This document shows, piece by piece, positions 5,680 through 60,291 of a stretch of 64,000 nucleotides of DNA. The translations under genes were made by a program, and so were the position numbers. Source of the stretch: Porogramme epimiltina (lineage: Eukaryota; Basidiomycota; Agaricomycetes; Polyporales; Polyporaceae); assembly GCA_900155495.1 (NCBI GenBank), contig FTLJ01000077.1, forward strand, positions 1 to 64,000, in the 5' to 3' direction. Each line of letters begins with the position of its first letter. Position 1 is the first letter of the stretch. Under the pieces are notes generated by a model. That model saw only the letters and a program-made list of their open reading frames with translations. It had not been told where the DNA came from and did not search any database.

Positions 5680-7484
5680 ATGTCCACTGACCCCGCCGCG
5701 GTCATCGACAGCACTGCCATCGTTACTCGGTTTGGCAGTTTGTAAGTAGCACGGCTGCTTCCCCGTACAATCCATTCCACTCTAACAATACACTGCCGCA
5801 GCCGTGTACTAAATTATGTCAACGTCGGAGCATCGGTCAGTGGTCAGTCTCATCTTACACAGGCAAGGCACAATGCTGACAGCCGCGTCCTCCCAGTACT
5901 CGTATTCTTCGAGCACCTCATCACCGCCGACCGCGAAATCGACCTCTTCTGGAAGCACAAGTTCTCTCTCCCAGCTGCCCTCTTCCTCACAAATGGATAC
6001 CTCATATTCGTGTCCTCTGCACTCAATCTGGTAGGCTCCTTCGATACATCCCTGAGCGCTGAAGTAAGTCAGGCTAACTCCCATACATGCGATTCCATCT
6101 GGGCTGACATCTTCGCGCCTCCTTAGGCGTGAGTTATGCTCCTCCCGGACACTTGTTGATCCAGGAGATGACAATAGGCGTTCCAGGTGCAATGGGATGG
6201 CATGGGCAACTCAGGTGGCAACTATCACCACATTCATACCACCAGCAGGTACGCGACGCTTCAACTCACGCTCTGCGAGTCATTCTACTAAAAATCGGCT
6301 ATCTAGCGTTCTCTGCAATGCGAGCAATCGCTCTCACCAGATCTAGGGCGTTCTCCGCACTCATCTTTCTCCTTTCTCTTGGTCCTGTCGCCGTAGACGT
6401 CGTGCGTATCCGCCGTTGTCTCGGAAAATTTACTCCCACCCACGATGTGATTTTCACACGCTGACAGGCTCGAGATGGACTTGAATACAGCGGATATGTC
6501 GACCCGCTGTTTGGCTGCGTAACGCTGGAGTTTTATCTTTCAGATCAGGTGTATATTGGGTGAGCTCGTCGTCCTATTAGTCGGTGTGCACGTGAACTCA
6601 TGCGTCTTCATCAATCATAGCTGTGCGTAAAACGAGCTATCTCGGTCTTCGTCACCTAACCTTACGACTATTTCAGGGGTCGTTGCATCCCGAGGATCCC
6701 TCATTGTAGCGGACGCACTCGTCATCGCCGTCACCTGGTCGAAACTATTTCGCGAAACCTCGGCGAGGAAGGCATTCCTCATGCGCCGCCACGTGCAATT
6801 GGCGGACGTGTTTTTGCGTGATGGTAAGCATCTGGATGTCTTTCGGCATCTGGGAAGCGCGTTAACTTGGACGTGGTAGGAACAATCTATTTTGTGTATG
6901 TTCATGCACATTTCATGACCATTGCATCTCGTGAAGTCGACTATATGAAACTCACGGCGAAGCCCGCAGATTGCTTCTGATAATGAATGTTTTGGACTTG
7001 ATATTCTCTTTCACCTCGGTGAGTTTTTCCTGTACTTCACCTTGAATTCGGGAACCCTCAACAACTCCTATGGAGATATTGCTTCAGGGCGGGTCGAGGG
7101 CAGGGAGCTATATCATCCGTATCACTGGGTCGTACGCCGCCATTCCTTCCTCCATCTTTTCTGCAGCACTCACTACATCATTCTACTATATCATATCGCT
7201 ATCACAGCCTCACATCAATCCTTGTCTCTCGCTTCCTCATTGACCTCCAGGAAGCGAACCTCCGGTCTGTCAAGGTCGACTCCGACGACCCGGCCTATAT
7301 CTCGTCCCACTCTGAGAACTCTCTCCCGAGCTTCGTCGCCGCCCCTGGCGCTACCAGACCTGCATTGGAATTGAGCGTAGAGCACTATACAGAATCTAGA
7401 GTGCTGGTCAACGAGGAGACGGGTGAGGCCAATAACTTGGAAGACGAGACGCTGGGAATGGAAATACCACATGTTGAGGTGTAG
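5680..7484 (+). CDS. DUF6533 seven-transmembrane protein, copy 1 (multi-exon)
   Basis: First complete paralog; stop codon TAG. The start is the first ATG after a TATA-like box and opens with MSTDPAA, matching MSSDPAA in its sisters. The family signature DREIDLFWKHKF lies in exon 3. Exon order is as described for the copy at 39426, with 2-nt exons at 6127-6128 (GC) and 6621-6622 (CT). The intron 2 donor is used four bases later than in the sisters (after GTC AGT G) and keeps frame. The first cysteine of the CSRC motif is replaced by arginine, because the codon formed across the micro-exon reads CGT. The loop after VFGC reads VTLEFYLSDQ, quite unlike the other copies, and the loop before the last membrane segment is basic and glycine-rich (GGSRAGS). 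No broken frame seen. Function unknown; a membrane receptor-like role is only inference. Confidence 0.85.
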
Positions 7485-12147: not shown

Positions 12148-13956
12148 ATGTCTAGTGATCCCGCCGCAGCCAACGACGGCACCACCATCGTTGCTTTATT
12201 GAGCAATTTGTAAGTAGCACGGCTGCTTCCCCGTACCCCCGTACCGTCCATGCCACTCTAACAATACACTCCCGCAGCCGTGAAGGACGATATGTCACCC
12301 TCGCAGCGTCGGGTCAACAATCAATCTCATCTGTCACATCCAGGACACAATGCTGACACCCGCGCCCTCCCAGTACTCATCTTCTACGAGCACCTCATCA
12401 CCGCCGACCGCGAAATCGACCTCTTCTGGAAACACAAGTTCTCTGTCCCAGCTGCCCTCTTCCTCACAAATAGATATCTCATACTCGTGTACTCTGCACT
12501 CAATCTGATAGGCGACTTCGATAAGTCCTTGAGTGCTGAAGTAAGTCAGGCTGACTCCCATGCTGGTGATTCCATCTGGGCTGACATCTTCCTATCTCCC
12601 TAGGTGTGAGTTATGCTCCTCCCAGCGACTTGTTGACCCGGGAGATGACAATAGATGTTCCAGGTGCAATGGGATACAATGGGCAACTCAGGTGGTGAAT
12701 CTCACCGCAATGGTACCACCAGCAGGTAGGCGACGCTTGAACTCATGCCCTGCGAGTCATTCTGCTGAAAATCGGCTATCTAGTGTTCTCTGCAATGCGA
12801 GCAAACGCGCTCACCAGATCTAGGGCGTTCTGCACACTCATCTTTCTCCTTTCCCTCGGTCCTCTCGCCGTAAACGTCGTGCGTGTCCGTCGTGCTCTCG
12901 GGGAATTTAATCGTACTCACGATGTGATTTTCACACTGACAGGCTCGAAGTGGACTTGAATACAACGGATTTGTCGACCCTGTGCTTGGCTGTGGAGCGC
13001 TGGAGTTTGATCCGTCAGAGCAGGTGTATATTGGGTGAGCTCGTCATCCTATCAGACGTTGCAGGCGTGAACTCACGCTTCTTCATCAATCACAGCTGTG
13101 CGTAAAACGAGCTATCTCGGTCTTCGACACCCAAATTTACGACTAGTTCAGGGGTTGTTGTATCTCGAGGATCTCTCATAGTGGCGGATGCGCTCGTTAT
13201 CGCCGTCACCTGGTGGAAACTATTTCGCGAAACCTCCCCGAGAAAGGCATTCCTCATGCACCGTCACGTGAAACTGGCGGACGTGTTCTTGCGTGATGGT
13301 GAGAATCTGATGTGTTTCGGCAACCGGGAAACGATCTGACTCGGATGTGGTAGGAACGATCTATTTCGTGTACGTTCATTCACAATTCACGATATGCACC
13401 TCGTGAAGCTAATTATGTGAAACTCGCGCATCTCGCAGATTGCTGCTTATACTGAGTGTTTTGGACCTGATATTCATTTTCACCTCTGTGAGTTTTTCCT
13501 GTCCTTCACCCTCAATTCTGGAACCTTCAGCAACTCCTTTGCAGATATTTGTTCAGGACGGGTCGAGTGAGAATGCGAGCTATATCATCGGTTTCACCAC
13601 GCCGTACGCCGCAGTTCCTTCCTCCATCTATTCCGCAGCACCCACTACATCTTTCTACTATATTATATCACAATCACAGCCTCACAGCAATCCTTGTCTC
13701 CCGCTTCCTCATCAACCTCCAAGAAGCCAACCTCCGGTCCATCAAGGTCGACTCCAACGACCCGGCCTACATTTCGTCCCACTCTGAGAACTCCCTCCCG
13801 AGCTTCATCGCTGCCCCTGGCACTACCAGGCCTGCCTTAGAATCGAGGGTAGAGCACTACACAGAACCTGGAGTGCTGGACAATGGGGAGATGGGTGAGG
13901 CCAATGAGGTGGAAGATGAGACGCTGGGAATAGAAATGCCACACGTTGAGGTGTAG
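12148..13956 (+). CDS. DUF6533 seven-transmembrane protein, copy 2 (multi-exon)
   Basis: Starts MSSDPAAANDGTT and ends in a conserved VEV before TAG. All splice sites follow the 13-exon pattern, including the 2-nt exons at 12604-12605 (GT) and 13096-13097 (CT). This copy helped fix the last donor. The sisters' apparent GT near the end of that exon is CT here, so the conserved GTACGCC upstream must be used, which joins TTP to LTAILVSRF exactly as in the wider family. Distinct features are FREGRYVTLAAS in the first membrane segment region, IGDFDKS before the first micro-exon, and a putative N-glycosylation site (NAS) in the last extramembrane loop. Shares a promoter with the minus-strand locus to its left. 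Intact; function unknown. Confidence 0.86.
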
Positions 13957-18504: not shown

Positions 18505-20302
18505 ATGTCTAGTGACCCTGCCGCGGCCATCGACGGCACCACCATCGTTGCTTTATTCGACAGTGCGTAAGTAGCACAGCTGCTTCCCCGTACCATTCAT
18601 TCCACTCTAACCATACACTTTCGCAGCCTTGTAGATTATTATGTCACCACCGCAGCGTCAGGTCAATGATCAGTCTCATCTCTCACGTCGAGAGCACAAT
18701 GCTGACAACCGCGCCGCCGCAGTACTCATCTTCTTCGAGCACCTCATCACCGTCGACCGCGAAATCGACCTCTTCTGGAAGCACAAGTTCTCTGTCCCAG
18801 CTGCCTTCTTCCTCACAAATAGATACCTCATACTCGTGAACTCTGCACTCAGTCTGGTAGGCCCCTTCGATAGGTCCTTGAGTGCTGGGGTAAGTCAGGC
18901 TGACTCCCATGCCGGCGATTCCATCTAGGCTGACATCTTCGCACCGACTTAGGTGTGAGTTATGTTTCTCCCGGCGACTTGTTGATCCAGGAGATGACAA
19001 TAGATGTTCCAGGTGCAATGGGATACAATACGCAACTCAGGCGGTGAATCTCACCGCATTCATACCACCAGCAGGTACGCGACGCTTGAACTCACGCTCT
19101 GCGAGTCATTCTGCTGAAAATTGGCTATCTAGTGTTCTCTGCAATGCGAGCAAAGGCTCTCACCAGATCTAGATCGTTCTGCGCACTCATCTTTCTCCTT
19201 TCTCTCGGTCCTCTCATCGTCGACGTCGTGCGTGTCCATCGTTGTCTTGGGGAATTTACTCGCACTCACGATGTCGTTTTCACACCCTGACAGGCTAGAG
19301 ATGGACTTGGATTCAGCGGATATGTCGACCCGGTGTTTGGCTGCGGGGAGCTGGTGTTCATTCCTTCAGAGCAGGTGTATATTGGGTGAGCTCGTTGTCC
19401 TATCAGTCGTTGCAGGTGCGAACTCATGCGTCTTCATCAATCATAGCTGTGCGTAAAACACGCTATCTCGGTCTCCGTCACCCAGATTTACGACTAATTC
19501 AGGGCTCGTTTCATCCCGAGGATCCCTCATTGTAGCGGATGCACTCGTCATCGCCGTCACCTGGTGGAAACTATTTCGCGAAACCTCTCCGAGGAAAGCA
19601 TTCCTCATGCGCCGCCATGTGAAACTGGCGGACGTGTTCTTGCGTGATGGTGAGCATCTGATATCTCTCGGTGAATGGGAAACGATCTGACTCGGACGTG
19701 GTAGGAACGATCTATTTCGTGTACGTTCATTCACAATTCATGATATGCATCCCGTGAAACCAACTATGTGAAACTTGCACATCCCGCAGATTGCTTCTCA
19801 TACTGAATGTTTTGGACCTGATATTCTGTTTCACCTCGGTGAGTTTTTCTTGTGCTTCACCCTAAATTCAACAATCCTCAATAACTCCTATGTAGATATT
19901 GCTTCAGGGCGGGGGAAGTGGCCTTGGGAGCTATATCGTCGGTGTCACTACGCCGTACGCCGCCGTTCACTCCTCCATGCGTGCCGCAAGCACTCACTAC
20001 GTCTTTCTACTATATCTTATCTCTATTACAGCATCACAGCAATCCTCGTCTCTCGCTTCCTCGTCGACCTCCAGGAAGCCAACCTCCGGTCCGTCAAGGT
20101 CGACTCCGTCGACCCGGCCTACATCTCGTCTCACTCTGAGAACTCTCTCCCGAGCTTCGTCGCCGCTCCGGGCGCTATCAGACCTGCTTTGGAATTCAGC
20201 GTAGAGCACTATACAGAACCTGGAGTTCTGGACAACCAGGAGACGGGTGAAGCCAATAACTTGGAAGACGAGACGCTGGGAATGGAAATACCGGCATGTT
20301 GA
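18505..20302 (+). CDS. DUF6533 seven-transmembrane protein, copy 3, C-terminus altered
   Basis: Exons follow the common pattern, with 2-nt exons at 18953-18954 (GT) and 19447-19448 (CT). The membrane segments and the DREIDLFWKHKF motif are kept. In the loop after VFGC it reads GELVFIPSEQ. One extra base near 20293 shifts the very end, so the protein stops at a TGA after EIPAC instead of ending HVEV; only the last few residues differ. The intron 3 body contains an in-frame stop (TAG) in this copy, which supports its being spliced out. A TATATAAA box lies about 60 bp upstream of the start. Confidence 0.85.
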
Positions 20303-25524: not shown

Positions 25525-27341
25525 ATGTCTAGTGACCCCGCTGCAGCCGACGACGGCACCACCATCGTTGCTTTATTCGATAATTTGTAAGTAGCACAGC
25601 TGATTCCGCGTACCGTCCCTGCCCCTCTAACAATACTCTCTCGTAGCCTTGTAGCAAACTATGTCATCCTCGCAACGTCGGGTCAATGATCAGTTTCATC
25701 TCTCACATACAAGGCACAGTGCTGATAGCCGCACCCTCCCAGTACTCATCTTCTTCGACCACCTCATCACCGCCGACCGCGAAATCGACCTCTTCTGGAA
25801 GCACAAGTTCTCAATCCCAGCTTCCCTCTTCCTCACAAATAGATACCTCATGCTCGTGTTCTCTGCACTCGTTCTGGTAGGCCCCTTAGATAGGTCCTTG
25901 AGTGCTGAGGTAAGTCAGGGTGACTCCCATGCCGGTGATTCCGACATCTGGGCTGACATCTTCGCACCTCGCTAGGTGTGAGTTATGTCCCTCCCGGATA
26001 CTTGTTGATCCAGGAGATGACAATACATGCTCCAGGTGCAATGGGATACAATGGGCATATCAGGTGGCGAATCACGCCACATTCATACCACCAGCAGGTA
26101 GGCGACGCTTGAACTCACGCTCTGCGAGTCATTCTACTGAAAACCAGCTATCTAGTGTTCTCTGCAATGCGAGCAAATGCTGTGACCAGATCTAAGGCGT
26201 TCTCCGCACTCATCTTTCTCCTTTCTCTCGGTCCTGTCGCCGTAAACGTCGTGCGTGTCCGTCGTTGTCTTGGGGAATTTACTCCCACTCACGATGTGGT
26301 TTTCACACGCTGACAGGCTCGAGATGGACTTGGATGGAGCGGATATGTCGACCCGGTGTTTGGCTGCGGGGCGCTGGTGTTCACACCTTCAGAGCAGGTG
26401 TATATTGTGTGAGCTCGTCGTCCTATCAGTCGTTGCAGGTGTGAACTCATGCGTCTTCATCAATCATAGCTGTGCGTAAAACGAGCTTTCTCGGTCTTTG
26501 TTACCTAAATTAACGACTAGTTTAGGGCTCGTTGCATCCCGAGGATCCCTGATTGTAGCGGATGCACTCGTCATCGCCGTCACCTGGTGGAAACTATTTC
26601 GCGACACCTCTCCGAGGAATGCATTCCTCATGCGTCGCCACGTGAAATTGGCGGACGTGTTCTTGCGTGATGGTGAGCATCTGATAGCTTTTCGCGACTG
26701 TGAAACGAACTGACTCGGACGTGATAGGAACGATCTATTTTGTGTATGTTCATTCACATTTCATGAGCGTTGCATCTTGTGAAGTCGATTATGTGAAACT
26801 CACGCATATCGCAGATTGCTTCTGATACTGAATGTTTTGGACCTGATATTTTCCTTCACCTCAGTGAGCTTTTCTTGTAGTTCACACCACATTCGGGAGC
26901 CGTCGACAAATTCTCCTATGCAGGTATTCATTCAGGGCGGGACGAGTGGCAGTAGTAGCAGCTATATCCTCAATTTCACTGCACCGTACGCCGCCGTTCC
27001 CTCCTCCATGGGTTCTGCAGTGCTGACCACATCTTTCTACTATATTCGCATATTGCTATCACAGACTCACAGCAATCCTTGTCTCCCGCTTCCTCATCAA
27101 CCTCCAGGAAGCAAACCTCCGGTCCGTCAAGGTCGACTCCGACGACCCAGCATACATCTCGTCTCACTCTGAGAACTCCCTCCCGAGCTTCGTCGCCGCC
27201 CCTGGCGCTACCGGGCCTGTTTTGGAATCGAGAGTAGAACATCATACACAAGCTGGAGTGGTGGACAACGGGGAGATAGGTGGGGCCAATGAGGTGGAAG
27301 ACGAGACGCTGGGAATGGAAATACCACATGTTGAGGTGTAG
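25525..27341 (+). CDS. DUF6533 seven-transmembrane protein, copy 4, one acceptor lost
   Basis: Full set of exons with 2-nt exons at 25976-25977 (GT) and 26470-26471 (CT). The intron after the first micro-exon normally ends in AATAG; here it reads AATAC, so that acceptor is dead. The next AG (end of CTCCAG, 9 nt downstream) gives an in-frame product lacking three residues, so a CSRC-like motif is reduced to one cysteine (VCNG). The last-loop exon begins with V instead of I (VFIQGGTSGSSSS), and the loop is the most serine-rich of the set. The tail ends HVEV at TAG. Probably functional, but splicing needs RNA data. Confidence 0.82.
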
Positions 27342-31752: not shown

Positions 31753-33526
31753 ATGTCTAGTGACCCCGCCGCAACCATCGACGGCACCGCCATCGCTGCT
31801 TTATTCGACAATTTGTAAGTAGCACGGCTGCTTCTCCGTACCATCCATTCCACTCTAACGATACGCTGTCCCAGCCTTGTAGATGATTATGCCACCATCG
31901 CAGCGTCAGGTCAATGATCAGTCTCATCCCTCATATCGCCGGCACGATGCTGACACCCGCGTCCTCCCAGTACTCATCTTCTACGAGCACCTCATCACCG
32001 CCGACCGCGAAATCGACCTCTTCTGGAAGCACAAGTTCTCTCTCCCAGCTGCCCTCTTCCTCACAGATAGATACCTCATATTCGTGTTCTCTGCACTCAA
32101 TCTGGTGGGTAACTTCGATAGATCCGTGAGTGCTGGAGTAAGTCAGGCTGACTCCCATGCCGGCGATTCCATCTGGGCTGACATCTTCCCACCTCCTTAG
32201 GTGTGGGTTACTCTCCTCCCAGCCACTTGTTGATCCAAGAGATGACAATAGATGTTCCAGGTGCAATGGGATAGTATGGACAAATCAGATTGTGAATATC
32301 ACCGCATTCATACCACCAGCAGGTAAGCGACGCCCGAACTCACCCTCAGAGAGTCTATCTACTGGATCGGCTATCTAGTGTTCTCTGCAATGCGAGCAAT
32401 CGCTCTCACCAGATCTAGAGCATTCTCCGCACTCATCTTTCTCCTCTCTCTCGGTCCTCTCGCCGCAAACGTCGTGCGTGTCCGTCGTTATCTTGGGGAG
32501 TTTACTCGCACTCACGATGTGATTTCCATACGCTGACAGGCTCCGCTTGGACTTGGGTTCAGCGGATATGTCGACCTGGTATTTGGCTGCCTGGCACTGC
32601 AGTTCACTCCTTCAGAGCAGGTGTATATTGGGTGAGCTCGTCGTCCTATCAGTCGCTGCATGCGTGAACTGATGCGTCTTCATCAATCATAGCTGTACGT
32701 AAAACGAGCTATCTCGGTCTCCGTCACCCAGATTTACGACTAGTTCAGGGACCGTTGCAGCACGAGGATCCCTGATTGTAGCGGATGCACTCGTCATCGC
32801 CGTCACCTGGTCGAAACTATTTCGTGAAACCTCTCCGAGAAAGGCATTTCTCATGCGCCGTCATGTGACACTGGCGGACGTGGTCTTGCGTGATGGTGAG
32901 CATCTGATAGGTTACGGCAAATGGGAAACTGTCTAACTCGGACGTGGTAGGAACGATCTATTTCGTGTATGTTCATTCACATTGCATCTCGTGAAGTCGA
33001 CCGTGTGACGCTCACACATCCCGCAGATTGCTGCTCATACTGAATGTTTTGGACCTGATATTCTGTTTCACCTCAGTGCGTTTTTCCTGTCCTTCACCCT
33101 CAATTCTGGAACCTTCGGCAACTCCTGTGCAGATATTGGTTCAGGACGGGTCGGGTGACAATGCGAGCTATATCACCCGTTTCACTGCACCGTACGCCGC
33201 TGGCATTCTTTCCTTCAGGGGTTCCGCAGCACTCACTGCATTATTCTACTATATTATACTGCTATCACAGCCTCACAGCAATCCTTGTATCTCGCTTCCT
33301 CATCGACCTCCAAGAAGCCAACCTCCGGTCCGTCAAGGTCGACTCCGACGACCCGGCATACATCTCGTCACACTCTGAGAACTCTCTCCCGAGCTTTGTC
33401 GCCGCCCCTGGCGCTACCAGACCTGCTTTGGAATCGAGCCTAGAGCACTCTATAGAAGCTGGAGTGCTGGACAACGGGGAGACGGGGAGACGGGTGAGGC
33501 CGATGGGGTGGAAGATGAGACGCTAG
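31753..33526 (+). CDS. DUF6533 seven-transmembrane protein, copy 5, tail frameshifted
   Basis: Exons are intact through the last membrane segment; 2-nt exons at 32201-32202 (GT) and 32693-32694 (CT, followed by a GTACGT donor). The intron after the first micro-exon begins GTGGGTT rather than GTGAGTT. A 7-bp repeat (GAGACGG, near 33478-33493) shifts the last 20 or so codons, so the acidic tail seen in the other copies is replaced by a basic end (GRRVRPMGWKMRR) stopping at 33526. The loop after VFGC reads LALQFTPSEQ. The core membrane protein should be unaffected, but a C-terminal sorting or signalling role could be changed. Confidence 0.83.
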
Positions 33527-38908: not shown

Positions 38909-39425
38909 TATATGTGCTCAACGCTCACATTATAGAAGATCGCACCCCCCGTAGCGTACTTGTCAGAACATGCAATTGTGAGACAATCTTACATGCACAC
39001 CACCCTATAAACAGGAACAACAGACCGGGCTCGACTCGGCGCACTTCATTCAATGATGTCTGTATCAGCTCAGGGTTAGCAATCCCCATTGAGATACAAG
39101 CTCGATGCCTGTCGCGGCCCCGTACCCCATATGTATGCATAGATGGAGCGAACATGCCAACATCTACATCATCGCATCATGGAGATCGCACTCGTACTAC
39201 CGCAACTAGTCAACCAGGGGATCCACCATTCAGCATCTCCATCTTGTACATTTGCAGATTCACAGGATCTCGAACGCGAACGGCTCCGTGCTCAGACAGC
39301 AACTCAGTAGGCGCATTAATCGACATCAGTCTACATGTCCCTATTGTCCGTAGGCCGCGGATATATAACCTCCAGCCATAGCATAAACCCCCCCACGACC
39401 CCGTCACACTCACTCACTGCTCACC
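38909..39425. promoter_or_regulatory. Divergent promoter, unit 6
   Basis: TATATAA at 39362-39368 and the CTATAAACAGGAACAACA block near 39004. Confidence 0.6.
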
Positions 39426-41232
39426 ATGTCTAGTGACCCCGCCGCAACCATCGACGGCACCACCATCGCTGCTTTATTCGACAATTTGTAAGTAGCACGG
39501 CTGCTTCTCTGTACCATCCATTCCACTCTAACGAGACACTGTCCCAGCCTTGTAGATAATTATGCCACCATCGCAGCGTCAGGTCATTGATCAGTCTCAT
39601 CCCTCATATCGCGGGCACGATGCTGACACGCGCGCCCTCCCAGTACTCATCTTCTACGAGCACCTCATCACCGTCGACCGCGAAATCGACCTCTTCTGGA
39701 AGCACAAGTTCTCTGTCCCAGCTGCCCTCTTCCTCACAAATAGATACCTCATACTTGTGGTCTCTGCACTCAATCTGGTAGGCCCCTTCGATAGGTCCTT
39801 GAGTGCTGGGGTAAGTCAGGCTGACTCCCATGCCGGTGATTCCATCTGGGCTGACATCTTCTCACCTCCTTAGGCGTGAGTTATGTTCCTCCCGGATACT
39901 TGTTGATCCAGGAGATAACAATAGATGTTCCAGGTGCAATGGGATACAATGGGCAGCTCAGGTGACAGATATCACCACATTGATACCACCAGCAGGTAGG
40001 CGATGCTTGAACTGACGCTCTACGAGTCATTCTACTGAAAATCGGCTATCTAGTGTTCTCTACAATGCGAGCAAACGCTCTCACCAGATCTAGGACGTTC
40101 TCTGCACTCATCTTTCTCCTTTCTCTAGGTCCTCTCGCCGTAGACGTCGTGCGTGTCCGTCGTTGTCTTTGGGAATTTACTCGCACCCACATGTGATTTT
40201 CACACGCTGACAGGCTCGAGATGGACTTGGATACAGCGGATATGTCGACCCGGTGTTTGGCTGCCTGATTCAGGTGTTCGGTCCTTCAGAGCAGGTGTAT
40301 ATTGGGTGAGCTCGTCGTCCTATCAGTCGTTGCAGGCGTGAACTCATGCCTCTTCATCAATCACAGCTGTGCGTAAAACGAGCTATCTCGGTCTCCCTCA
40401 CCCAAATTTACGACTAGCTCAGGGCTCGTTGCATCCCGAGGATCCCTGATTGTGGCGGATGTACTCGTCATCGCTGTCACCTGGTGGAAACTATTTCGCG
40501 AAACCTCTCCGAGGAAGGCATTCCTCATGCGTCGCCACGTGAAATTGGCGGACGTGTTCTTGCGTGATGGTGAGCATCTGATATGTCTCGGCAACCGGGA
40601 AACCATCTGACTCAGATGTGGTAGGAACAATCTATTTTGTGTACGTTCATTCACATTCCATGACCGTTACATCTTGTGAAGTCGACTATGTGAAACTCAT
40701 GCATTCCGCAGATTGCTTCTCATACTGAATGTTTTGGACCTGATATTATCTTTCACCTCGGTGAGTTTTTCCTGTACTTCCCCTCAAATTCAGGAACCCT
40801 CAACAACTCCTATGCAGATATTGGTTCAGGATGGGACTAATGGCAGTAATAGTAGCTATATCATCATTTTCACTACGCCGTACGCCGCAAAGCCTTCTTC
40901 TATGTGTTCCGCAGCACTCACTACATCTTTCTACTATATCATATCGCTACCACAGCCTCACAGCAATCCTTGTCTCTCGCTTCCTCATCAACCTCCAGGA
41001 AGCCAACCTCCGGTCCGTCAAGGTCGACTCCGACGACCCGGCCTACATCTCGTCCCTCTCTGAGAACTCTCTCCCGAGCTTCGTCGCTGCCACGGGCGCT
41101 ACCAGACCTGCTTTGGAATCGAGCGTAGAGCACTATACAGAACCTGGGGTGCTGGACAACGAGGAGACGGGTGAGGCCAATGACTTGGAAGACGAGATGC
41201 AGGTAATGGAAATCCCACATGTTGAGGTGTAG
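39426..41232 (+). CDS. DUF6533 seven-transmembrane protein, copy 6 (reference model, 358 aa)
   Basis: Exons: 39426-39487, 39548-39582, 39644-39810, 39874-39875, 39925-39995, 40054-40148, 40214-40305, 40367-40368, 40423-40569, 40625-40640, 40712-40760, 40818-40879, 40956-41232; total 1077 nt, frame open throughout. DUF6533 region about residues 20-85 with DREIDLFWKHKF at 44-55. Hydrophobic segments lie near 28-41, 57-79, 96-115, 122-138, 172-194, about 224-246 and about 266-285, giving a seven-pass pattern, followed by an acidic, serine-rich tail (SENSLPSF, then many E and D). CSRC just before segment 3 and VFGC in the loop after segment 4 sit where class A receptors place a disulphide. DUF6533 proteins are abundant in Agaricomycetes and have no proven function; receptor-like action is inference. 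Confidence 0.9.
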
Positions 41233-45787: not shown

Positions 45788-47604
45788 ATGTCTAGTGACC
45801 CTGCCGCAGCCATCGACGGCACCACCATCGTTGCTTTATTCGACAATATGTATGTAGCACGGCTGCTTCGCCGTACCATCCACTTTCCATTCTAACGATA
45901 CACTCTCGCAGCCTTGTAAATTATTATGTCGTCATCGCAGCGTCAGGTCAATGATCAGTCTCATCTCTCACATCGAGGACACAATGCTGACACCCGCGCC
46001 CTCCCAGCACTCATCTTCTTCGAGCACCTCATCACCGCCGACCGCGAAATCGACCTCTTCTGGAAGCACAAGTTCTCAATCCCAGCTTCCCTCTTCCTCA
46101 CAAATAGATACCTCATGCTCGTATTCTCTGCACTCGTTCTGGTGGGCCCCTTCGATAGGTCCTTGAGTGCTGGGGTAAGTCAGGCTGACTCCCATGCCGG
46201 TGATTCCGACATCTGGGCTGACATCTTCGCACCTCGCTAGGTGTGAGTTATGTTCCTCCCGGCTACTTGTTGATCCAGAAATGATGACAATAGACGTTCC
46301 AGGTGCGATGGGACGGTATGGGCGACTCAGGTGGCGACTATCTCCGCGTTCGTACCAGCAGCAGGTAAGCGACGCTTGAACTCACGCTCTGCGAGTCATT
46401 CTGCTGGAAATGGGCTATCTAGTGTTCTCTGCAATGCGAGCAATCGCTCTCACCAGATCGAGAACGTTCTGCGCACTCGTCTTTCTCCTTTCTCTCGGTC
46501 CTCTCACCGTCGACGTCGTTCGTGTCCGTCGTTGTCTTGGAGAATTTACTCACACTCACGATGTGATTTTCACACCCTGACAGGCTCGAGTTGGACTTGA
46601 ATTCACCGGATATGTCGACCCCGTCTTTGGCTGTGGGGCACTGCTGTTCGAACCTTCAGAGGATGTGTATATTGGGTGAGCTCGTCGTCTTATATGCCGT
46701 TGCAGGCGTGAACTCATGCGTCTTCATCAATCATAGCTGTGCGTGAAATGAGTTATCTCGGTCTTTTTCACGTAAATTTACGACTTCCTCAGGGGTCGTT
46801 GCATCACGAGGATCCCTGATTGTAGCGGATGCACTCGTCATCGCTGTCACCTGGTCGAAACTATTTCGCGAAACCTCTCCGAGGAAGGCATTCCTCATGC
46901 GCCGCCACGTGAAATTGGCAGACGTGTTCTTGCGTGATGGTGAGCATCTGATATGTTTCGGCAACCGGGAAACGATCTTACTCAGCTGGTAGGAACGATC
47001 TATTTCGTGTACGTTCATTCACAGTTCATGGTATGCATCTCGTGGGGCCAACCATGTGAAACTTGCACATCCTGCAGGTTGCTTCTGACACTGAATGTTT
47101 TGGACCTGATCTTCACTTTCACCTCCGTGAGTTCTTCCTGTGCTTCACACCACATTCTGGAGCCATCGACAACTTCTCCTATGTAGATATTCACACAGGG
47201 CGGGACTCCGAATGACAATAGTAGCGATATCATCATTCTCACTACGCCGTACGCCGCAAAGCCTTCTTCTATGTGTTCTGCAGCACTCACGACATCTTTC
47301 TACTATATCATATTGCTATCACAGCCTCACAGCAATCCTCATCTCTCGCTTCCTCATCAACCTACAGGAAGCCAACCTCCGGTCCGTCAAGGTCGACTCC
47401 GACGACCCGGCCTACATCTCGTCCCACTCTGAGAACTCTCTCCCGAGCTTCGTTGCCGCTCCTGGCACTACCAGACCTGCTTTGGGGTCGAGAATAGAGC
47501 ACTACATAGAAGGTGGAATGCTGGACAACGGGGAGACAGGTGGGGCCGATGACGGGGAAGAGGCGGCTGCAGTGGGAATGCTACCTATCGACGTGGAGGT
47601 GTAA
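45788..47604 (+). CDS. DUF6533 seven-transmembrane protein, copy 7 (multi-exon)
   Basis: Exon 1 ends at GTATGT instead of the usual GTAAGT. 2-nt exons at 46241-46242 (GT) and 46737-46738 (CT). The intron after the first micro-exon is 2 nt longer than in the sisters, an indel that would break the frame if it were coding, which supports its removal. The exon after it carries CGT for the first cysteine codon of CSRC. Loop sequences are distinctive: GALLFEPSED after VFGC, and FTQGGTPNDNSD before the last membrane segment. The tail is shorter in acidic repeats, with EEAAA, and ends DVEV at TAA. Intact as far as can be seen. Confidence 0.85.
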
Positions 47605-52162: not shown

Positions 52163-53968
52163 ATGTCTAGTGACCCCGCCGCAGCCATAGACGGCACCAC
52201 CATCGTTGCTTTATTCGACAGTTTGTAAGTAGCACGGCTGCTTCCCCGTACCATCCATTCCACTCTAACGATACGCTGTCCCAGCGTTGTAGATCGTTAT
52301 GTCACCATCGCAGCGTCAGGTCAATGATCAGTCTCGTCTCTCACATCCAGGGCATAATGCTGACACCCGCGTCCTCCCAGTACTCATCATCTTCGAGCAC
52401 CTCATCACCGCCGACCGTGAAATCGACCTCTTCTGGAAACACAAGTTCTCTGTCCCAGCTGCCCTCTTCCTCACAAATAGATACCTCATACTCGTGTACT
52501 CGGCACTCTGTCTGGTGGCTAACTTCGATACATCCGTGAGTGCTGGAGTAAGTCAGGCTGACTCCCATGCCGGCGATTCCATCTAGGCTGACATCTTCGC
52601 ACCGACTTAGGTGTGAGTTATGTTTCTCCCGGCGACTTGTTGATGCAGGAGATGACAATCGATGTTCCAGGTGCGATGGGATAGTATGGGCGAGTCAGGT
52701 GGAGACTCTCACCACATTGATACCACCAGCAGGTAGGCGACGCTTGAACTCACGCTCTGCGAGTCATTCTGCTGAAAATAAGCTATCTAGTGTTCTCTGC
52801 AATGCGAGCAATCGCTCTCGCCAGATCTAGAACGTTCTGCGCACTCATCTTTCTCCTTTCTCTCGGTCCTCTCATCGTCGACGTCGTGCGTGTCCGTCGT
52901 TGTCTTGGGGAATTTACTCGCACTCACGATGTGATTTTCACACGCTGACAGGCTCGAGATGGACTTGGATTCAGCGGATTTGTCGACCCAGTCTTTGGCT
53001 GCGGGGTTCTGAATGTCTCACCTTCAGAAGATGTGTATATTGGGTGAGCTCGTCGTCCTATCGGTCGTTGTAGATGTGGACTCATGCGTCTTGATTAATT
53101 ACAGCTGTGCGTAAAACGAGCTATCTCGCTCTGCGTCACCCAGATTTACGACTATTTCAGGGCTCGTTGCATCCAGAGGATCCCTCATTGTAGCGGATGC
53201 ACTCGTCATCGCTGTCACCTGGTGGAAACTATTTCGCGAAACCTCTCCGAGGGAGGCATTCCTCATGCGCCGCCCCGTGAAATTGGCGGACGTCTTCTTG
53301 CGTGATGGTGAGCACCTGAGAAGTTTCTGCAAGTGGGAAACGACCTGACTCGGATGTGGTAGGAACGATCTATTTCGTGTATGTTCATTCACATTTCATA
53401 ACCTGCATCTCGTGAAGCCAACTATGTGAAACTCGTACGTCCCGCAGGTTGCTTCTGACACTGAATGTTTTAGACCTGATATTCTCCTTCACCTCAGTGA
53501 GCTTTTCTTGTAGTTCACACCACATTCGGGAACCATCGACAACTTCTCCGATGTAGATACTCATTCAGGGCGGGGCGAGTGGCACTAGTAGCTATATCCT
53601 CAATTTCACTGCACCGTACGCCGCTGTTCCCTCCTCCATGTGTCCCGCCGCACTGACCACATCTTGCTACTATGTCATATCGCTATCACAGCTTCACAGC
53701 GATCCTTATCTCCCGCTTCCTCATCAACCTCCAGGAAGCCAACCTCCGGTCCGTCAAGGTCGACTCCGACGACCCGGCCTACATCTCGTCCCACTCTGAG
53801 AACTCTCTCCCGAGCTTCGTCGCCGCCCCTGGCACTACCAGACCTGCTTTGGAATCGAGCGTAGAGCGCTACGTCGACGCTGGAGTGGTAAACAACGGGG
53901 AGACGGGTGAGGCCGATGATGTGGAAGACGAGACGCCTGGAGTGGAAATACTATCCCTCGAGGTGTAG
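52163..53968 (+). CDS. DUF6533 seven-transmembrane protein, copy 8, one acceptor lost
   Basis: 2-nt exons at 52611-52612 (GT) and 53105-53106 (CT). As in the copy at 25525, the acceptor after the first micro-exon is lost (AATCG instead of AATAG); the AG 9 nt downstream restores frame and removes three residues. Intron 3 holds an in-frame stop in this copy. The loop after VFGC reads GVLNVSPSED, and RPVKLAD replaces RHVKLAD before segment 6, a change shared with the copy at 58488. The tail ends SLEV at TAG. The TATA-like box is TATATTA rather than TATATAAA. Confidence 0.82.
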
Positions 53969-58487: not shown

Positions 58488-60291
58488 ATGTCTAGTGAAC
58501 CCGCCGCAGCCGCCGACGGCACCACCATCGTTGCTTTATTCGACAGTTTGTAAGTAGCACAGCTGCTTCCCCGTACCATCCATTCCACTCTAACCATACA
58601 CTGTCGCAGCCTTGTAGATGATTCTGTCATCATCGCAGCGTCAGGTCAATAATCAGTCTCATCTCTCACGTCGAGGGCACAATGCTGACAGCCGCACCCT
58701 CCCAGTACTCGTCTTCTTCGAGCACCTCATCACCGCTGACCGCGAAATCGACCTCTTCTGGAAGCACAAGCTCTCTCTCCCAGCTGCCCTCTTCCTCACA
58801 AATAGATATCTCATACTCGTGAACTCTGCACTCATTCTGGTAGGCCCCTTCCATAGGTCCTTGAGTGCTGGGGTAAGTCAGGCTGACTCCCATGCCGGTG
58901 ATTCCATCTGGGCTGACATCTTCGCCCCTCCTTAGGTGTGAGTTATGCTCCTCCCGGCCACTTGTTGACCCAGGAGATGACAATAGATGTTTTAGGTGCA
59001 ACGGGATAGAATGGGCGTATGAGGTGGTGAATCTCACCACATTGATACCACCAGCAGGTAGGCGACGCTTGAACTTACCCTCTGCGAGTCATTCTACTGA
59101 AAACCAGCTATCTAGTGTTCTCTGCAATGCGAGCAATCGCTCTCACCAGATCTAGGGCATTCTCCGCGCTCATCTTTCTCCTCTCTCTCGGTCCTCTCGC
59201 CGTAGACGTCGTGTGTATTCCCCATTGTCTTGGCGAATTTACTCTCACTCACGATGTGGTTTTCACACGCTGACAGGCTCGAGATGGACTTGGATTCGGC
59301 GGAATTGTCGACCCGGTGTTTGGCTGTGGGGCGCTGGAGTTCGGTCCTTCAGAGCAGGTGTATATTGTGTGAGCTCGTCGTCCTATCAGTCGTTACAGGC
59401 GTGAACTCATGCGTCTTCATCAATCATAGCTGTGCGTAAAACGAGCTATCTCGGTCTCCCTCACTTAGATTTACGACTAATTCAGGGCTCGTTGCATCCC
59501 GAGGATCTTTGATTGTAGCGGATGCACTCGTCGTCGCCGTCACCTGGTCGAAAATATTTCGCGAAACCTCTCCCAGGAAGGCATTCCTCATGCGCCGCCC
59601 CGTGAAATTGGCGGATGTCTTCTTGCGCGATGGTGAGCATCCGAGAAGTTTCTGCAAGTGGGAAACGACCTGACTCGGATGTGGTAGGAACGATCTATTT
59701 CGTGTATGTTCATTCACATTTCATAACCTGCATCTCGTGAAGCCAACTATGTGAAAATCGTACATCCCGCAGGTTGCTTCTGACACTGAATGTTTTAGAC
59801 CTGATATTCAGTTTCACCTCGGTGAGTTTTTCCTGTGCTTCACTCTAAATTCGGCAATCCTCAACGACTCCTATGTAGGTGTTGCTTGAGGGAGCTGCAA
59901 AAGGTGCTGGGAGCTACATCACCCTTTTCACTACGCCGTACGCGGCCGTTCCTTCTTCCATGTGTTCCGCCGCACTGATCACATCTTTTTTACTATACCA
60001 TCTCGCTATCATAGCCTCACAGTAATCCTTATCTCCCGTTTCCTCATCAACCTCCAAGAAGCCAACCTCCGGTCCGTTAAGGTCGACTCCGACGACCCGG
60101 CCCACATCTCGTCTCACTCTGAGAACTCTCTCCCGAGCTTCGTCGCTGCGCCTGGCGCTACCAGACCCGCTTTGGAATCGAGCGTAGCGCATCGTATAGA
60201 AGCCGGAGTGCTGGACAACGAGGAGACGGGTGAGGCCAATAACTTGGAAGACGAGATGCTGGGAATGGAGATACTACACGTTGAGGTGTAG
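58488..60291 (+). CDS. DUF6533 seven-transmembrane protein, copy 9 (multi-exon)
   Basis: 2-nt exons at 58936-58937 (GT) and 59430-59431 (CT). The residue after the first cysteine of CSRC is phenylalanine (CFRC). The last-loop exon begins VLLEGAAKGAGS, lacking the QGG/QDG motif of the others, and is followed by the conserved TTP-LTVILISRF join. The stretch from intron 8 to exon 11 is nearly the same as in the copy at 52163, including RPVKLAD, while the upstream half is closer to other copies; this looks like a gene-conversion tract. Ends HVEV at TAG. Intact. Confidence 0.85.

Follow-up and report, generated by a model that had tools for sequence, protein, structure and literature searches.

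Evidence for paired two-nucleotide coding exons across the DUF6533 gene family of Porogramme epimiltina

Can a gene depend on coding exons of only two nucleotides, and on two of them at once? The question is raised by a DUF6533 gene in the window, by which we mean the whole 64,000-nucleotide (64-kb) stretch of Porogramme epimiltina DNA analysed here. A sequence-only reading had proposed that this gene keeps its reading frame only if two 2-nt exons are spliced in, that both exons are present in all nine copies of the gene in the window, and that annotation would miss them. Our answer, to which we assign a probability of about 93% on the strength of the DNA sequence, is that DUF6533 genes encode GPCR-like seven-helix proteins and would carry two constitutive 2-nt coding exons, included through consecutive removal of their flanking introns, in an arrangement ancestral to the sampled family.

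The model of the target gene (copy w39642) was obtained by spliced alignment with manual edits. We placed both the start codon and the beginning of exon 12 by hand, the program's own output having a start at 39405 and exon 12 at 40830. The features of the gene are as follows.

39426..41232, plus strand: DUF6533 gene, 13 exons, 355 aa
39426-39487, 39548-39582, 39644-39810, 39874-39875, 39934-39995, 40054-40148, 40214-40305, plus strand: exons 1-7 of the DUF6533 gene
40367-40368, 40423-40569, 40625-40640, 40712-40760, 40818-40879, 40956-41232, plus strand: exons 8-13 of the DUF6533 gene
39811..39873, plus strand: intron a1, 63 nt, GTAAGT..CCTTAG
39874..39875, plus strand: microexon 1 (GC), exon 4 of 13, intron phase 0 before and phase 2 after
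39876..39933, plus strand: intron b1, 58 nt, GTGAGT..TTCCAG
40306..40366, plus strand: intron a2, 61 nt, GTGAGC..TCACAG
40367..40368, plus strand: microexon 2 (CT), exon 8 of 13, intron phase 2 before and phase 1 after
40369..40422, plus strand: intron b2, 54 nt, GTGCGT..GCTCAG

The introns of this gene are 54-76 nt long and have GT-AG borders. Its product matches Pfam DUF6533 (PF20151) at 47.8 bits against a gathering score of 24.1 (E = 1.6e-12), and the seven-helix fold of a GPCR is predicted for it. The two microexons lie where they were first proposed and have the proposed splice signals, their contexts being TTAG/GC/GTGAGTT and CACAG/CT/GTGCGTAA (slashes mark exon borders). Both are ultra-small exons, shorter than 3 nt, with canonical AG and GT borders and ordinary introns on either side. 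Microexon 1 falls at the top of predicted helix 3, where its bases, the first two of their codon, complete the codon preceding a family-conserved Cys. Microexon 2 falls near the start of predicted helix 5, and its two bases belong to different codons, closing one and opening the next.

Some details of the original model had to be changed. Of the proposed intron sizes, 63 and 54 nt were recovered exactly and the intron of about 60 nt measures 61 nt, whereas the intron after microexon 1 is now 58 nt rather than 49 nt. The acceptor first chosen for that intron (AATAG/ATG, intron end 39924) is absent in two of the nine copies, w25741 and w52379. The revised acceptor 9 nt downstream (TTCCAG/GTGC in w39642) has its AG in all nine copies and defines an intron of 58 nt (60 nt in w46006); it stays in frame and makes exon 5 62 nt long, matching the rest of the family. 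The length of the protein changed from 358 aa to 355 aa. Two further features of the model are recorded here. Intron 2 (39583-39643) has an odd donor in all nine copies, GTCATT in w39642 and GTCAAT, GTCAAC or GTCAGT in the others, and 40625-40640 is a conserved 16-nt exon, with 78 internal 16-nt exons found across the 79 gene models described below.

The window contains nine DUF6533 copies, all on the plus strand and spaced 6.2-7.7 kb apart. The microexons of the other eight copies are located as follows.

Microexon 1 (GC) 6127..6128 and microexon 2 (CT) 6621..6622, plus strand: w5895, a frame-broken copy
Microexon 1 (GT) 12604..12605 and microexon 2 (CT) 13096..13097, plus strand: w12372
Microexon 1 (GT) 18953..18954 and microexon 2 (CT) 19447..19448, plus strand: w18718
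Microexon 1 (GT) 25976..25977 and microexon 2 (CT) 26470..26471, plus strand: w25741
Microexon 1 (GT) 32201..32202 and microexon 2 (CT) 32693..32694, plus strand: w31969
Microexon 1 (GT) 46241..46242 and microexon 2 (CT) 46737..46738, plus strand: w46006
Microexon 1 (GT) 52611..52612 and microexon 2 (CT) 53105..53106, plus strand: w52379
Microexon 1 (GT) 58936..58937 and microexon 2 (CT) 59430..59431, plus strand: w58704

As had been claimed, both sites are present in every copy. Microexon 1 reads AG followed by GT or GC and then GTGAGT, and microexon 2 reads AG/CT/GTGCGT, the donor variants GTGGGT and GTACGT occurring at the respective sites of w31969. We did not retain this agreement as stand-alone evidence, since at the DNA level the nine copies share 83.5-88.9% identity, introns included, and their agreement alone is therefore weak evidence; the test is supplied by 70 other loci. 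As a separate observation, self-comparison indicates that 4358-64000 is largely a tandem array with units of 6.2-7.7 kb, each consisting of a DUF6533 gene and other repeats. For ten of the longer window ORFs that are not part of a DUF6533 gene, no Pfam match exceeded the cut-off; one weak match fell below it.

To evaluate the frame of each copy, the w39642 gene model was used as a reference and projected onto all nine. The expectation that all nine would fit was realised in five, in which the projected frame is open to the position of the reference stop and free of inner stops. Three others fit in part: the projected stretch of w46006 is open and lacks a terminal stop, and w18718 and w31969 each have a frameshift confined to the last exon. 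In w5895 the frame is lost: one nucleotide is deleted from exon 2, and the acceptor preceding exon 12 is GAG. This copy (5710-7325) looks decayed, having 11 stops in the projected frame, yet both of its microexon sites are intact.

The broken frame of w5895, the C-terminal shifts of two copies and the tandem-array arrangement would all be in keeping with the nine copies being decayed repeats, in which the microexons are fossils with no expressed product. We consider this very unlikely, because five copies are fully open to a common stop without inner stops, the pattern is common to diverged paralogs, and the aligned stretches of 79 genes contain 0 inner stops, a count to be read with the fact that the alignment program penalises stops.

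We next turn from the window to the family and to paired 2-nt exons as its proposed common structure. The 41.9-Mb assembly (926 contigs) yielded 150 scored Pfam DUF6533 matches, all over the cut-off, from 279 candidates. Our sample comprised 79 distinct genes, namely 70 loci elsewhere in the genome and the nine window copies, among which no double counting was found; 75 of them (the 70 loci and five window copies) are included in the 150 matches, and the other four window copies are outside that list. Each gene was modelled with a spliced alignment program that was written for this analysis and that allows exons of any length. The profile was built from 87 public DUF6533 proteins, 83 from named other species, which we take to belong to Polyporales, and four 'lgn' entries, with at most 63% identity to any sampled gene. 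It takes in some damaged public proteins, and the splice-site scores were set by hand rather than trained on P. epimiltina. The sampled genes form 46 clusters at 50% protein identity and 58 at 60%; with 46 clusters at the lower threshold, the family pattern is not a product of recent copying.

The program placed 140 exons of exactly 2 nt in the 79 genes. Seventy are at microexon 1 (profile column ~91), 69 are at microexon 2 (column ~175), and the only one elsewhere is in w12372. Inspection added to these numbers. At microexon 1, the program chose a 4-nt exon in L052, in which the 2-nt pattern is nevertheless present, and it followed a different path in L022, L027, L054 and L065, in which we found by hand a 2-nt microexon 1, an intron of 54-56 nt, an AG acceptor and a 62-nt exon 5. 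Microexon 1 is thus 2 nt long in 75 of the 79 genes. The remaining four (L032, L043, L049 and L070) lack intron b1. Their exon 5 is 64 nt long, versus 62 nt in 67 of the 70 program cases, indicating that the two bases have been fused to exon 5. These four genes form a single clade (support 0.863).

Likewise, microexon 2 is 2 nt long in 71 of the 79 genes, 69 by program and two (L026 and L049) by hand. It is 8 nt long, which is also 2 mod 3, in L024, L025 and L031, which fall in one clade with L063 (support 0.943). In L040 it is fused upstream, producing an exon of 94 nt versus the commonest length of 92 nt. These classes cover 75 of the 79 genes, L006, L021, L022 and L063 having been left out after inspection by hand.

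We also searched for the microexons without reference to reading frame, using the pattern YAG-N(L)-GTRNGY, in which L is the spacing between acceptor and donor. For microexon 1, the sequence downstream of the domain was scanned in the 79 genes. The L=2 pattern was observed in 52 of them (43 of 70 outside the window), whereas shuffled sequences averaged 1.9 and never exceeded 5; the runners-up among the spacings were L=16 with 12 and L=5 with 9. For microexon 2, intervals exist for 76 of the 79 genes and were cut with the help of the model; 46 of the 76 (37 of 67 outside the window) have the L=2 pattern, the shuffle mean being 0.6 and the maximum 5, and no other spacing from 0 to 20 exceeds 3. 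Over whole gene spans, the L=2 pattern was found 106 times on the plus strand, 18 times on the minus strand, and 12 times on the plus strand when both microexon sites were cut out. The plus strand of the whole-gene scan likewise has elevated counts at L=3 (52) and L=0 (37), and these persist with the microexon sites removed.

The program was then challenged with altered genes. With intron b deleted as a decoy, it invented 2-nt exons in 0 of 70 genes at microexon 1 and 0 of 69 at microexon 2, and the fused exon itself was found again in all 70 genes at the first site and in 68 of 69 at the second. Deletion of the two bases lowered the score by a median of 11.4 bits at microexon 1 and 9.4 bits at microexon 2, with no loss in the worst case. 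Masking the acceptor or donor of microexon 1 cost a median of 12.6 bits (minimum 1.4), and masking those of microexon 2 cost a median of ~11 bits (minimum 0.5, in w46006). The claim that the frame breaks without either exon is therefore true of the family pattern and too strong for every single copy, some of which have a near-equal alternative, such as w46006 at microexon 2 with its difference of 0.5 bits. As judged from these alignments, single genes can be ambiguous, whereas the family as a whole is not. Taken together, the spliced profile alignment, the intron-loss paralogs, the frame-blind spacing tests and the decoys support the proposal that the frame needs both 2-nt exons.

Such cheap alternatives in single copies are one reason to consider a single long intron (~115-150 nt) at each place, with the frame kept through another acceptor or donor, for example CTCAG/GTG in exon 5 or ACTAG/CTCAGG before exon 9. 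The AG at the first of these places is present in all nine window copies, but splicing to CTCAG/GTG would cost the protein 13 aa, among them the conserved Cys, together with the beginning of helix 3. ACTAG is present in four of the nine copies (w12372, w25741, w31969 and w39642) and missing from five, and no one alternative was seen family-wide. The frame-blind scans are also unfavourable to this idea, since a spacing of two nucleotides dominates at microexon 1 and is, at microexon 2, the sole short spacing with a clear enrichment; the paralogs that lack intron b1 keep the two bases. Moreover, the combined spans lie outside the usual intron lengths. Their medians are 122.5 nt at microexon 1 and 117 nt at microexon 2, the shortest being 101 and 94 nt, and only 0.75% of the 666 other introns in the models reach 101 nt. 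We regard a long intron at these places as very unlikely.

A spliceosomal twin intron (stwintron) consists of an internal intron that splits a splice element of an external intron, with nothing retained between them. A stwintron, or a zero-nucleotide recursive site, would account for adjacent introns with a very short spacer, the two bases being removed within a nested intron, and stwintrons are documented in fungi in the available portions of the literature. However, loss of the two bases throws the flanking exons out of frame, the bases are coding in our model and are held as coding, fused to an exon, in the paralogs without intron b1, and a residue occupies this position in public proteins whose junction is intact. 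For a zero-nucleotide recursive (ratchet) site, at which nothing is kept between the introns, a spacing of L=0 would be relevant; it was observed in 5 of 79 genes at microexon 1 and 1 of 76 at microexon 2, versus 52 of 79 and 46 of 76 for L=2. An explanation of this kind appears extremely unlikely.

The positions, splice signals, reading frame, conservation and intron-loss clade, all of them read from the DNA, suggest that the 2-nt exons are actually used in splicing. The introns that flank them are ordinary, with medians of 58-60 nt compared with a median of 59 nt for the other 666 introns, and the microexon splice sites score about the same as those elsewhere (donors 6.59 versus 6.71 bits, acceptors 6.87 versus 6.90 bits). 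Since two bases are too small to accommodate two splice complexes simultaneously, we infer that the short flanking introns would be recognised through intron definition and excised in succession. Skipping, with the first donor joined directly to the last acceptor, would amount to removing an intron of ~120 nt, which is beyond the usual length and would shift the frame; the length limit may thus disfavour skipping. The paired arrangement is probably ancestral to the sampled family, with intron b1 having presumably been lost later in one clade and microexon 2 having presumably been lengthened to 8 nt in another.

Public proteins of other species provided a view of how these junctions have been annotated. 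At the microexon 1 junction, some read as predicted (SDKSC, SDESC) and others contain translated intron sequence or lack an exon. Two relatives from Cubamyces and Trametes (P0118 and P0134) represent both forms of the junction in what is apparently the same gene. We scored as damage any indel of at least 4 aa within 6 columns of a junction. In a first set of 112 proteins (95 of 132 aligned rows counted, each spanning at least 200 columns), damage was observed in 49 of 94 at microexon 1 and 49 of 95 at microexon 2, compared with 26 of 93 at J11, 17 of 95 at each of J9 and J10, and 0-9 at the other junctions. In a second set of 104 proteins outside the profile (102 of 111 rows counted), the numbers were 40 of 100 at microexon 1 and 31 of 102 at microexon 2. 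J9 and J10, which flank the 16-nt exon, were damaged in 14 of 102, and the other junctions were damaged in 1 (J1), 1 (J2), 6 (J5), 2 (J6), 3 (J11) and 5 (J12). This concentration of damage at both junctions agrees with the expectation that annotation misses 2-nt exons, and the 2-nt exons are our proposed explanation for the frequent damage of public DUF6533 models at both places. The indel counts are tempered by the fact that loops vary in length by nature. Our own 79 models, despite being fitted to the profile, have indels of at least 4 aa in 10 of 79 at microexon 1, 6 of 79 at microexon 2 and 18 of 79 at J11.

Four of the public entries, labelled 'lgn', are uninterrupted ORFs on contigs of 1195-2104 nt and are probably transcripts. 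In all four, which are themselves in the profile, a residue immediately precedes the Cys at the microexon 1 junction. Three (P0017, P0090 and P0111) have no larger indel there, and P0080 has a loop that is 7 aa longer. A protein search for a transcript of this fungus returned no 'lgn' entry in the best 120 of 310 matches. The nearest public proteins among the matches listed are 57-62% identical to the sampled models, and at that identity none of the matches listed looks derived from P. epimiltina.

How do these exons compare with known systems? The comparisons that follow draw on the available portions of the cited papers. One-nucleotide exons verified by RNA are known in plant APC11 and VPS55 (PMC4674806, PMC8831610). 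Like the DUF6533 microexons as we model them, the plant exons are constitutive, essential for the frame, conserved, flanked by two introns and missed by annotation. Most monocots have the APC11 base incorporated in a larger exon, just as the two nucleotides of DUF6533 are fused in one clade (PMC4674806, PMC8831610). Intron definition with two consecutive removals has been proposed for a 1-nt plant exon as well (PMC4674806). In contrast, the plant cases involve few gene copies, 1 nt and one such exon per gene, whereas those of DUF6533 are 2 nt long, occur two per gene in dozens of fungal paralogs, and are known here from DNA.

Among fungi, the closest counterpart is the RNA-confirmed 1-nt exon of Fusarium CYP621A, which is found in one ortholog group across many species (20 orthologs according to the abstract, 24 genes according to the discussion) and whose presence was also first deduced by combining a phase mismatch with orthologs and a relative that has no introns (PMC12940212). 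In DUF6533, by contrast, the exons measure 2 nt and come in pairs, and a single genome contains them in the majority of the family members sampled. With stwintrons, DUF6533 genes have in common adjacent fungal introns that need consecutive splicing (PMC9024468, PMC12403724, PMC6616335); the difference is that a stwintron has a splice element of one intron split by the other, whereas the DUF6533 spacer would be retained as codon bases. The P450 genes of Phanerochaete resemble the present genes in coming from a white-rot basidiomycete and in having short introns and small exons, the shortest reported microexon being 6 bp (PMC1184071).

Another DUF6533 protein is Snowball (SNB1) of Coprinopsis, which is required for fruiting-body patterning and which, according to its authors, does not conform to GPCR classes (PMC10949477). 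The proteins studied here share with SNB1 a Pfam domain and seven predicted helices. In the available portions of the SNB1 paper we found no report of the gene structure at the microexon junctions (PMC10949477).

Our literature search found, among the matches listed, no report of 2-nt exons in DUF6533 genes or in basidiomycetes. A family-wide, constitutive pair of 2-nt exons thus looks new, 1-nt exons being already known. The literature consulted describes exons of 1-2 nt in few genes, compared with ~140 here, at two fixed places in 79 diverged genes. Together with the natural intron-loss and length variants, this number would make it directly testable how the spliceosome copes with an exon too small to be recognised as one, in what order the introns are removed and how skipping is prevented.

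With the odds evenly balanced, the pair may be ancestral to DUF6533 across mushroom-forming fungi, in which case the genome would hold ~280 two-nucleotide exons, a number obtained by scaling the sampled frequencies (75 of 79 and 71 of 79 genes) up to at least 150 matches. On that reading, no other genome would probably be known to hold as many exons of 1-2 nt, and much of the public sequence record of the family would have to be rebuilt. Finally, DUF6533 is a very large GPCR-like family in this genome, and many of its matches are clustered on the same contigs.
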